Source: Haloplanus sp. HW8-1 (lineage in GTDB: Archaea; Halobacteriota; Halobacteria; Halobacteriales; Haloferacaceae). From it: a stretch of 64,000 bases of DNA. The translations under genes and the position numbers were made by a program. The stretch's first letter is position 1, and each line of letters opens with the position of its first letter. A model generated the notes under the pieces. The model had not been told where the DNA came from and ran no database searches. It saw nothing but the letters and a program-made list of their open reading frames with translations. Shown here piece after piece: positions 19,522-26,323 of the stretch. The stretch lies in assembly GCF_023703795.1 (NCBI RefSeq), contig NZ_CP098518.1, positions 558,001 to 622,000 of the forward strand, in the 5' to 3' direction.

Positions 19522-20484
19522 ATGACCGATCCCGACGTCGTCGTGTTGCGACAGAAGGTACACGGCATGGATCCGGAGTCGTACGGAACGAAACTGCGCG
19601 AGCGGCTCCCCGACCACGACGTGGCCGTCGCGACCACGCCCGACGAGGAGCGCGACCTGCTCCGGCGGGCGCGGGTGGCGACCGGCATCCACTTCGACAC
19701 CGAGTTGCTCGACGGAGCCGAGTCCCTCGACCTCTTTGCCTGTGCCTTCGCCGGCACGGGTCACCTCGATGTCGACGCGTTCGCCGATGCGGGCGTGGCC
19801 GTCACCAACGCCGCCGGCGTCCACGGTCCCAACATCTCGGAGTACGTGATCGGCGCGCTGGTCGCCCACGAGCGGCGGTTCAGGCGCGCCCGGGATCAAC
19901 AGCGTCGCGCCCACTGGGAGGCGTATCCCGTCGGGGAACTCCACGGAAGTACCGCCGCAGTCGTCGGACTGGGCGCCATCGGCTCCGCGCTCGTCGAGCG
20001 GCTCCACCCCTTCGGCGTCGAGACCGTCGGCGTCCGGTACACGCCCGAGAAAGGCGGGCCGACAGACGAGGTGATCGGGTTCGACGACGTTCACGACGCG
20101 CTGGCCGGCGCAGACTACGTGATCCTCGCCTGTCCGCTCACCGACACCACTCGCAGCCTGATCGACGCCGAGGCGCTGGCGTCGATGCCCGCGGACGCCC
20201 TGCTTGTGAACGTCGCTCGCGGCCCTATCGTCGACACGGACGCCCTAGTGACGGCGCTCCGCAACACGGACCTCCGCGGGGCGACCCTGGACGTGACCGA
20301 TCCCGAACCGCTGCCCGCGGACCATCCCCTCTGGTCGTTCGAGAACGTCCAACTCACCCCGCACAACGCCGGCAACACCCCGCAGTACTACGACCGCCTC
20401 GCGGACATCCTCGCCGAGAACCTGCGACGGATGGACGAGGGGACCGACGACCTGGAAAATCAGGTGGTCTATAGTGGCGATTGA
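19522..20484 (+). CDS. D-2-hydroxyacid dehydrogenase
   Basis: The 320-residue NAD(P)-dependent enzyme shows the family's parts: dinucleotide fold AVVGLGAIGSALVERL, catalytic Arg in NVARGPIVDTDALV, Glu in DVTDPEPLP, and His in QLTPHNAGNTPQYYDR. It should reduce a 2-oxoacid or oxidise a D-2-hydroxyacid such as glyoxylate/D-lactate types; the substrate is not decided. The last residues VVYSGD and the stop codon come from the left arm of an 86-bp hairpin element (20469-20554), so the natural C-terminus has probably been changed by that element. Confidence 0.87.
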   Translation: MTDPDVVVLRQKVHGMDPESYGTKLRERLPDHDVAVATTPDEERDLLRRARVATGIHFDTELLDGAESLDLFACAFAGTGHLDVDAFADAGVAVTNAAGVHGPNISEYVIGALVAHERRFRRARDQQRRAHWEAYPVGELHGSTAAVVGLGAIGSALVERLHPFGVETVGVRYTPEKGGPTDEVIGFDDVHDALAGADYVILACPLTDTTRSLIDAEALASMPADALLVNVARGPIVDTDALVTALRNTDLRGATLDVTDPEPLPADHPLWSFENVQLTPHNAGNTPQYYDRLADILAENLRRMDEGTDDLENQVVYSGD

Positions 20485-20554
20485 AAGTCATTACACAGCC
20501 GATCGCAGTACTGCGTCCGATCGGCTGAGCAACCAGTTTCAATCGCTACTATAG
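20469..20554. mobile_element. 86-bp hairpin element, copy 1 (MITE-like)
   Basis: The element begins ctatagtggcgattgaaa and ends with its complement tttcaatcgctactatag, one wobble apart. Inner arms cagccgatcg / cgatcggctg continue the stem, around gcagtactgc. It bridges two convergent genes and provides the last codons and stop of both (YSGD* and YSSD*). A second 86-bp element with the same terminal sequence lies at 26238-26323. It codes for nothing itself; a non-autonomous mobile element or a spreading terminator are both possible. Confidence 0.7.
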
Positions 20555-21273
20555 TTCTCGGGTGGTGCTACCTCGTTCCGGAGGGTCCCGACGCCCTCGT
20601 AGGTGATCTCGACGGTGTCGCCGGGTTCGATCGTGCCCGGATTGGCCGGACTGCCGAAGGCGATCACGTCTCCGGGGCGGAGGGTGAACCGCTCGGAGAG
20701 GAAGGCGACGACCTCGTAGGGGTCGAACAGCATGAGTTCGGTGTTGGCCTCCTGCCGTCGCTCACCGCTCACGTCGGTGTACATGTCGATCCCGCGTGGA
20801 TCGAGGTCGGTTTCCAGCCACGGTCCGAGCGGCCCGGAGCCGTCGAACGCTTTTCTGGCCGTTCGTCCCGGCTGATCGAGGGCGTCCACGTCGTTCATGA
20901 TCGTGTAGCCCCGAAGCACCTCGGGCACCTCCTCGGGGTCGAGGCGGTGACTCCGCTCGTCGATCACGGCGGCGAGTTCCCCGGCGTAGGTCACTTCCTC
21001 GGAGAAGGTGGGGTAGGGAATCGGCTCCTCGTGGGCGATGACCGATGCGGGCGGCTTGATGAAGAAGGCTGGCTGATCGGGCACGTCGTACTCCATCTGG
21101 TCGAGCGTCTCGGCGAAGTTCCGCCCGACGCAGTACAGCGCCGAGGGGTCACAGGGCGGCGCGAGGTGGCCGTCCTCGCCGACGACGTACGTCTCCGCGT
21201 CCGTCTCGACGACGCCGTCACGATACTGGCCGGCGTACACGTCGCCATCGACCGCGATGCGTGCGCGTCTCAT
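20539..21273 (-). CDS. Fumarylacetoacetate hydrolase family protein
   Basis: A 244-residue FAH-fold protein. LYCVGRNFAETLDQM, QPAFFIKPPASVIAH, EVTYAGELAAVIDERS and YTIMNDVDALD are the usual family stretches, including the metal-binding acidic residues; FGSPANPGTIEPGDTVEITYEGVGTLRN closes the domain. Such proteins cleave or decarboxylate acylpyruvates or related 2-oxoacids. The reaction here is not determined. The C-terminal NYSSD and stop come from the right arm of the hairpin element. The start at 21273 is from homology; the frame runs further upstream without a likely start. Confidence 0.82.
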   Translation of the reverse strand: MRRARIAVDGDVYAGQYRDGVVETDAETYVVGEDGHLAPPCDPSALYCVGRNFAETLDQMEYDVPDQPAFFIKPPASVIAHEEPIPYPTFSEEVTYAGELAAVIDERSHRLDPEEVPEVLRGYTIMNDVDALDQPGRTARKAFDGSGPLGPWLETDLDPRGIDMYTDVSGERRQEANTELMLFDPYEVVAFLSERFTLRPGDVIAFGSPANPGTIEPGDTVEITYEGVGTLRNEVAPPENYSSD

Positions 21274-21435
21274 ACCGCCCCCGTCCCGGTCGACCGACAA
21301 ACCGCTTGTGGAACGTCCTCGTGTGTCCTGTGGCGGCGAAACGGTCGTGTATATCAACTGAGAACCTGAGACGCACCCCTGCCCGCGGCCCCCGATCCAC
21401 GTCAGTTTTTACCCGTCGGCCGGTACCGAGGGGTA

Positions 21436-24561: not shown

Positions 24562-26271
24562 ATGCTCACCACCGAGGGACCGCTCCTCACGATCGACGTG
24601 GGATCGCGACGGGCCGACACCGCAGACGTCGACGACGTCCTCGAGGCGTACATCGGCGGCCGCGGGGTCGCGACCCGCCTCGCTCACGACCGGATCCCGT
24701 TCGACGCCGATCCACTGGCCCCCGAGAACCGCCTCTATTTCACGACCGGGCCCATGCAGGCCTCGTCGATGAGCTTTACCGGCCGCACCTCGGCGACGGC
24801 CGTCTCGCCGCTGACCGACGGCCTGCTCTCGACCAATGCCGGCGGCTTCGTCTCGCGGAACCTGCTGGGGACGGGCAACGCCGTCGTCGAACTCGTCGGG
24901 GCGAGCGACGTTCCCCTGATCGTCCACGTCCGCGAGGGCGGCGTGACGTTCGAGGAGGTCCCCGACCTGTGGGGCGCGGAAGTGCCTGCGGTCACCGACT
25001 ACGTCGAGGCGGAACACGACCTCGGGGCGGAACACGTGGCCTGCATCGGTCCGGCGGGCGAAAACGAGGTCCGGTTTGCCTGCATCATGACAAGCGAGAC
25101 CCGGGCCTTCGGCCGCGGCGGCCTCGGCGCAGTGCTGGGATCGAAGGGAGTGAAAGCGATCACCTTCGACGGCGACGCCACCCCGAACGTGGAGATCGAC
25201 GCCGAAGCGGATGAGATCCACCGCGAGGCGGCCACGAGCGACCACATCATGAAACGGCAGGGGACCAGCAGCGTCACCGACCTCGCCAACGAGATCGGAT
25301 CCTTCCCCACCCGCTACTTCGAGGACGTGCGCTACGAGGAGTTCGAGAAGATCAACGGCGATCGAGTGGAGGAAAAAAAGTACAAGAAGGGGACCTGCTC
25401 GCAGTGTGCGTTTGCCTGCAAGTTGCCGACGAAGGACGAGGCGGCGGGCGTCGAGACGGAGGGCCCGGAGTTCGAGACGATCATGTCTTTCGGCGGCAAC
25501 TGTGAGGTCGACGACATCGTCTCGATCATGCAGTCGAACGACCTCTGTGACCGACTGGGGATGGACACCATCTCCTGTGGCAACGCGGTGGCGGCCTATC
25601 TGAAGGCCGAGGATGCCTTCGGCGACGACGAGTTGATCCACGAGACCGTCGAGAAGATCGCCCACCGCGAGGGCGACGGCGACCGCCTGGCGGAGGGGAT
25701 CCACAGGTTCCACGAGGACCTCGGCGTCGAGGACTGGACGGTCAAGGGCATGACCTTCTCGGCGCACGACGGGCGGACGCTCAACGGACAGGGACTCGCC
25801 TTCGCCACCGCCAACCGCGGCGCCGACCACATGTACGCGACGTTTTACGCCTACGAGTACCCCCTCGTCGACGCCTCGGAGGCGTTCGAACCGGCAGGAC
25901 TCTCGACGGCCAAAGCCGAGAAACTCGTCGAACTTGAGAACAAGCGCGCACTGGAGGACTGTGGTGTCGTCTGCCGGTTCTCGCGTGGGATGATGACCTC
26001 GGAACGCTTCGAGCGACTCTTCGACGCCGACTTCGACGACCTGCTCGCGGTGGGGGCCCGTGTCGTCGAACTCGAACGCCACTTCAACAACCGGCGCGGG
26101 TTCGACCGGTCGGACGACGACCTGCCGTACGACCTGCCGGACTTCGAATCGGCGCTCGACGCCTACTACGACGCCCGCGGGTGGACCGCCGAGGGCGTCG
26201 TCCCCGACGACGACGTCGAAGCGGGCGCGAGCGTCGACTATAGTAGCCTTTGTGAGTCATCAAACACCTGA
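24562..26271 (+). CDS. aor: Aldehyde:ferredoxin oxidoreductase (tungstopterin family)
   Basis: This 569-residue enzyme oxidises aldehydes to acids with a tungsten/molybdenum pterin and passes electrons to ferredoxin. The [4Fe-4S] ligands are seen as C279, C282 and C286 (CSQCAFACKLPT) and a late Cys in DCGVVCRF (467 or 471), matching the spacing of the known enzymes. FTGRTSATAVSPLT and GRGGLGAVLGSKGVKAI are family stretches. The last codons, YSSLCESSNT, come from an 86-bp hairpin element, so the C-terminus is altered. A tttaataag box lies 26 bases before the ATG. A ferredoxin gene follows. Confidence 0.87.
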   Translation: MLTTEGPLLTIDVGSRRADTADVDDVLEAYIGGRGVATRLAHDRIPFDADPLAPENRLYFTTGPMQASSMSFTGRTSATAVSPLTDGLLSTNAGGFVSRNLLGTGNAVVELVGASDVPLIVHVREGGVTFEEVPDLWGAEVPAVTDYVEAEHDLGAEHVACIGPAGENEVRFACIMTSETRAFGRGGLGAVLGSKGVKAITFDGDATPNVEIDAEADEIHREAATSDHIMKRQGTSSVTDLANEIGSFPTRYFEDVRYEEFEKINGDRVEEKKYKKGTCSQCAFACKLPTKDEAAGVETEGPEFETIMSFGGNCEVDDIVSIMQSNDLCDRLGMDTISCGNAVAAYLKAEDAFGDDELIHETVEKIAHREGDGDRLAEGIHRFHEDLGVEDWTVKGMTFSAHDGRTLNGQGLAFATANRGADHMYATFYAYEYPLVDASEAFEPAGLSTAKAEKLVELENKRALEDCGVVCRFSRGMMTSERFERLFDADFDDLLAVGARVVELERHFNNRRGFDRSDDDLPYDLPDFESALDAYYDARGWTAEGVVPDDDVEAGASVDYSSLCESSNT

Positions 26272-26323
26272 TCGCGCGCAGTCCGGCGATCAGGTGTGCA
26301 AACAGTTCCGAACGCTACGATAG
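26238..26323. mobile_element. 86-bp hairpin element, copy 2 (MITE-like)
   Basis: It starts ctatagtagcctttgtgagt and ends, read from the other side, ctatcgtagcgttcggaact; inner arms acacctgatcgc / gcgatcaggtgt are perfect. Length and outer arms match the element at 20469-20554, while the inner stem differs. It overlaps the end of the aldehyde oxidoreductase gene and supplies its stop. Its right end forms a second perfect hairpin, ccgaacgcta-cga-tagcgttcgg (26308-26330), just before the ferredoxin promoter. Confidence 0.7.

Follow-up and report, generated by a model that had tools for sequence, protein, structure and literature searches.

The 86-bp hairpin between two convergent genes of Haloplanus sp. 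HW8-1 is very probably a MITE, built as if the left end of an ISNpe3-like IS630 element were joined to its right end in a near-perfect palindrome, and moved in trans by such a transposase; this reading rests on sequence comparison, from which we infer the movement rather than having seen it directly. The comparison with relatives has shown that the orthologous empty sites read CTAG, that integration takes place at the TA of CTAG with duplication of the TA, and that at this junction CTAG was formerly the overlapping TAG stop of both convergent genes. The unit is short, non-coding and multicopy, its terminal inverted repeats are related to those of an autonomous IS, and TA is duplicated, as in IS630-associated MITEs. 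The kind (IS630-type MITE) is known, and this haloarchaeal 86-bp family is a probably new member of it. The window, i.e., the whole stretch of 64,000 nucleotides that was analysed, corresponds to C1:558001-622000 of the 3.84 Mb host genome, and the features concerned are as follows (window coordinates).

19525..20484, + strand: D-2-hydroxyacid dehydrogenase gene (Pfam PF02826, E 4e-53; start codon provisional)
20469..20554, - strand: 86-bp unit of subfamily A, consisting of target C + TA + 80-bp MITE + TA + target G; in window coordinates the left end, bearing the AACTG mark, comes on the right
20470..20471, no strand: left copy of the TA target duplication (filled site versus CTAG in G007)
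20472..20551, - strand: 80-bp MITE proper (TAGTGGCG..CGCTACTA), with boundaries inferred from the empty sites
20472..20501, + strand: right-end module, reading TAGTGGCGATTGAAAGTCATTACACAGCCG, which matches the right end of the ISNpe3-like IS
20522..20551, - strand: left-end module, reading TAGTAGCGATTGAAACTGGTTGCTCAGCCG on the - strand, which matches the left end of the ISNpe3-like IS
20552..20553, no strand: right copy of the TA target duplication (filled site versus CTAG in G007)
20539..21357, - strand: fumarylacetoacetate-hydrolase-family gene (Pfam PF01557, E 1e-49; start codon provisional)
26238..26323, - strand: second 86-bp unit, a member of subfamily B; its inferred target is the TAG stop of a + strand gene

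First of all, the nearly perfect long stem that the original prediction had drawn from outer and inner arms was confirmed. The outer arms of the unit at 20469-20554 are 18 bp long with one mismatch, the inner arms are CAGCCGATCG/CGATCGGCTG, and the whole is an imperfect palindrome with CTATAG at its ends; folded as single-stranded DNA it reaches -27.3 kcal/mol (z -7.8), and none of 200 shuffles is equally good. A second 86-bp element is indeed present at 26238-26323, but its outer arms (CTATAGTAGCCTTTG / CTATCGTAGCGTTCG) are only similar to those of the first, not identical as had been claimed; in the relatives examined, the orthologous place is without the element. Searches of Rfam and of phage records with the hairpin unit matched nothing.

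Both convergent genes terminate within the hairpin, as had been proposed: the D-2-hydroxyacid dehydrogenase (+) ends in ..LENQVVYSGD* and the fumarylacetoacetate-hydrolase-family protein (-) in ..APPENYSSD*, the last codons YSGD* and YSSD* being supplied by the element. The element occupies this junction only in the host (G000) among 12 genus members, the 86-bp unit being absent from the orthologous junction in 11/11 genus mates. In G007 the empty junction reads CAGGTCGT-CTAG-CGCTCC, the genes end at CTAG in ..LENQVV* and ..APPER*, and the two TAG stops overlap in the palindrome CTAG. Insertion rewrites NNC-TAG as NNC-TAT-AGT-RGC-GAT-TGA (R = G or A) on both strands, and since CTAG at this junction was the overlapping stop of two genes, it lengthened both proteins by four residues. 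One small mobile element can therefore alter two protein ends simultaneously and leave both genes intact, since CTAG, the rare target, may coincide with a stop codon, even one shared by two convergent genes.

The filled site C-TA-[80 bp]-TA-G, compared with the empty CTAG, is a net gain of 82 bp with TA duplicated. Besides the junction in G007, empty CTAG sites were found at host copy 627112 (in G003, G004, G005 and G007), at host copy 659408 (G005, G006, G007 and G010) and at host copy 1194128 (G001, G006 and G009), so that the TA target duplication that had been sought is supported at four loci in relatives; a duplicated TA and an element with an unequal TA end give identical filled sites. 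The inferred target deviates from CTAG in 4 of the 24 host copies (TTAG twice, GTAG, and CTAC or CTAA, with one flank affected in each), which may be due to mutation. On a plasmid of Halobellus sp. DFY28 (L054:2372-3206), a copy interrupts an aglF-like nucleotidyltransferase gene, whose two parts are annotated as separate genes; putting CTAG in place of the 86 bp yields an open frame that can be aligned with intact relatives.

Hairpins of other types were also met at orthologous junctions. Near the same convergent junction, G008 (L107) carries a hairpin of another kind, ATACGGATTATTGTAACTGTTTACCGG..CCGTAT, which is about 82 bp long; its AACTG/AAGTC marks are the same and its terminal bases differ, resembling the ATACGG found at the ends of a further IS630 family (L096). 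In G009 (L268) the place corresponding to host copy 362721 is taken by a third type of hairpin, ATAGAGATTATCGGAAGTCATC..CCCCTAT, and in G007 (L267) by a decayed relative of the 86-bp unit. Intergenic junctions seem to be hit repeatedly by sister hairpin families.

As to the partner transposon, among the IS630-type genes (Pfam DDE_3) of the genus, TATAGTA../..CTACTATAG ends belong to a single IS in G002 and to five in G003; the ends of the IS630-type elements in these two genus mates read CTATAGTAG/CTACTATAG. The same IS group comprises 80 relatives across Halobacteria, including the RefSeq-annotated ISNpe3 and ISNamo16. The ends of IS and MITE were aligned without gaps from the target C, and profile scores were compared with those of 20000 shuffles. 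The left ends read ..GTTAGAACTTTC.GC in the IS and ..TTTGGAACTGTTTGC in the MITE, and the right ends ..TTAGAAGTAATTGC (L075) and ..TTTGTAAGTCATCGC, respectively. Matching profiles scored z 5.6 and 5.6 for left on left and z 5.5 and 6.0 for right on right, and 0/20000 shuffles scored as high; MITE left ends preferred the left IS profile over the right one, and MITE right ends the reverse. Three further IS630 families from these genomes, used as the control, gave z <=2.4. In this way the autonomous relative with the same ends that had been called for was found in the ISNpe3-like IS630 elements (end profiles z 5.5-6.0), while the other IS630 families of the genus, with mismatching ends, were rejected as partners. 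IS and MITE share the ends C-TA-TAGTAG.., the marks at positions 17-20 (AACT on the left, AAGT on the right), and insertion at nTAG with TA duplicated; they differ in that the IS is about 1062 bp long with its transposase in two overlapping frames, whereas the MITE is 80 bp, palindromic and non-coding, and its centre (positions 28-59) has no counterpart seen in the IS. The transposase lies in two overlapping frames in L075, L232 and L233, and is annotated as a 1001-nt CDS in ISNpe3 and ISNamo16; the overlap suggests a programmed frameshift.

From these data a sequence of steps can be proposed. The 80-bp non-coding MITE would descend from an ISNpe3-like IS and would be moved in trans by its transposase, whose gene is present in genus mates and absent from the host; it integrates at the TA of CTAG, duplicating TA, and at the 20469 junction it replaced both TAG stops by TAT AGT RGC GAT TGA. 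Neither an ISNpe3-like transposase gene nor an IS end was found when the host genome was searched, so its copies are at present orphans or dependent on another enzyme. Several genomes rich in copies likewise have no ISNpe3-like transposase gene, for example G043, where no DDE_3 (IS630) transposase gene was found in a 98% complete genome with 37 copies (looser pattern); this genome belongs to another genus of the same family.

Since the host itself holds two copies of an ATAGTG-type IS630 element and no ISNpe3-like IS, the unit could be the same kind of MITE with another IS630 family, such as this one, as its mover, which we regard as unlikely. GGAACTGTTT occurs within one ATAGTG-type left end as it does in MITE subfamily B, and the sister hairpins combine the same AACTG/AAGTC marks with other terminal bases. 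However, the terminal bases of the other IS630 families are ATAGTG or ATACGG, not TAGTAG, and their end profiles stay at the low z of the control, which favours the ISNpe3-like IS as the source of the MITE.

The search of the whole genome and of haloarchaea, which had been suggested for further copies, was positive in both. There are about 26 copies in the host genome, 24 of exactly 86 bp and two damaged, all on contig C1; the 24 intact units form subfamilies A (CTATAGTAGCGATTGAAACTG..; n=11) and B (CTATAGTAGCGTTTGGAACTG..; n=13). With the looser pattern, between 1 and 28 copies were counted in 9 of the 11 genus mates. When exact ends and a length of exactly 86 bp were required, units were found in 41/391 haloarchaeal genomes and 17/86 genera, with up to 39 copies per genome, and other lengths are rare (56-85 bp in 2/99 relatives; 87-116 bp in 2/99 relatives). 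Related units of 74-79% identity sit on plasmids of Halobellus, Haloferax mediterranei, Natrinema, Natronosalvus and others. The proposed family of small mobile hairpins is therefore borne out by its genomic copies, its empty orthologous sites, the duplicated TA and the existence of an autonomous relative whose ends are the same.

The arms were analysed in 46 distinct units against 300 column shuffles, a control that ignores the kinship of copies. Positions 1-18 pair with their mirror positions in 90% of cells (best shuffle 85%) and positions 23-38 in 80% (best shuffle 76%). Compensatory switches were seen at 12/75 (T-A or A-T) and 16/71 (A-T, C-G or T-A), and the pairs 30/57 and 32/55 occur in three types each. 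Since the shuffles are blind to kinship, the pairing excess supports selection on pairing and does not measure it. By contrast with these paired positions, 19/68 is never paired (C.C in 45/46 units), nor is 21/66 (G.G in 41/46), so that an asymmetric mark at positions 19-22 (AACTG in one arm, AAGTC in the opposite arm) distinguishes the left end from the right end. The description "conserved outer, variable inner" was thus incomplete: nearly all of the 86 bp are two arms, both of which vary in a compensatory manner, and it is the mark at 19-22 that is constant. Relative to the mark, the central 14 bp of the host's subfamily B copies can point either way (GCCAGACTGCGTGC or exactly its reverse complement); the flips, which include host copies 1107691 and 1439893, look like an inverted hairpin loop.

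It is conceivable, though rather improbable, that the hairpin itself is selected at a fixed 86 bp across haloarchaea, an idea drawn from the co-varying arms, the constant left/right mark and the persistence of copies without a partner transposase. If this were true, it would imply a strict geometry of the transposition complex, in which the minimal substrate is 80 bp long and is recognised as a hairpin, or alternatively a use by the host at the ends of convergent genes. 

The relationship of the unit to gene ends needs to be divided into target and product. In the window, CTAG is observed 13 times versus about 53 expected from trinucleotide counts, and some of the remaining sites are TAG stop codons. 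According to CTAG statistics that cover the window and the fetched stretches with a heuristic gene criterion, the inferred targets of 9/24 host copies lie at gene stops, versus 6/26 unoccupied CTAG sites (p 0.36), and a general enrichment at gene stops is not supported. Double stops of convergent genes were the target of 4/24 copies versus 0/26 unoccupied CTAG sites (p 0.046, nominally significant; small numbers, several tests), and of 4/11 copies for subfamily A alone (p 0.005; small numbers, heuristic gene calls). Inside the element, an in-frame TGA closes the frame after 4 codons in subfamily A and 10 codons in subfamily B, with added tails such as YSSVWNCLHT* and YSSLCKSSHT*. The entered frame has no stop at 10/46 right ends, these being from other lineages, and at 1/46 left ends, so ready-made stops, though common, are no general rule. 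Early stops in this frame reach 76% versus 39% in shuffles, an excess that does not show selection since the copies are mutually related. The original prediction, that these hairpins carry ready-made stops and so can land at gene ends, had reversed the cause, as the target is CTAG, here the stop of both genes; nor does it hold as a general feature, given the open ends and the 15/24 host copies that lie away from any recognisable gene stop. That copies sit at gene ends would follow from the scarcity of CTAG elsewhere and from the loss of insertions inside genes.

The excess at double stops, together with the 86 bp fixed over 17 genera and the compensatory, more-than-shuffled pairing, could also be read as a host element, for example a bidirectional terminator or insulator between convergent genes, whose length is under selection and whose mobility is secondary. 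This is very unlikely, because the 20469 junction is occupied in a single genus member, the majority of copies lie away from gene stops, one copy disrupts a gene, the ends are transposon ends, and template switching can also make palindrome arms alike. Moreover, there is no T-run directly 3' of the stem, where CTATAG is followed by TTCTCGG and ACCACCTG on the two strands, and an intrinsic terminator at 20469-20554 was rejected on this ground. A REPIN-like or IS200/IS605-type (PATE) element moved as a single-stranded hairpin by a Y1 transposase would fit the long hairpin with GTAG near each foot and the inverted central 14 bp, but it is the least credible reading in view of the TA duplication at CTAG and the end-by-end match to a DDE-transposase IS.

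Among known systems, the RUP and Correia elements are bacterial IS630-associated MITEs, short palindromes with TA duplication that use an IS630-type transposase. The haloarchaeal unit differs from them in sequence, length and host, and RUP and Correia are not known to be linked to CTAG stop codons. In haloarchaea, SMR-A and SMR-B of Haloquadratum walsbyi resemble the 86-bp unit in being 80-110 bp long, transposase-free and present in many copies with terminal inverted repeats, while they are described as lacking a target duplication and as having ends that resemble those of no known transposon (PMC3119063). The unit, by comparison, has a TA duplication and ends that match the ISNpe3-like IS; as it differs on both counts, it is not classed as an SMR. 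The Haloquadratum PATEs are likewise haloarchaeal, transposase-free and palindromic, and they are IS605-type without terminal inverted repeats (PMC3119063); an identity with PATEs or IS605-type elements was rejected, since the inverted repeats of the unit reach its ends and TA is duplicated. A text search of the literature for the arm sequence returned unrelated papers only, and a search for haloarchaeal IS630 MITEs, with most subscription papers and supplements outside its reach, found none.

What is unusual in this family is the class-wide fixed length, the hairpin kept via compensatory changes and the persistence without a partner transposase. For haloarchaeal annotation, it provides a class-wide repeat family with a defined target, a duplication and a likely transposase, and it cautions that a transposon is the source of tails such as YSSD*. 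With so strict a length, the unit is also a clean substrate for the study of IS630-type transposition in archaea. In addition, two longer units with alike ends and different centres, G039:C9:17191-17303 (113 bp) and G037:C5:103334-103440 (107 bp), are possibly intermediates from IS to MITE.
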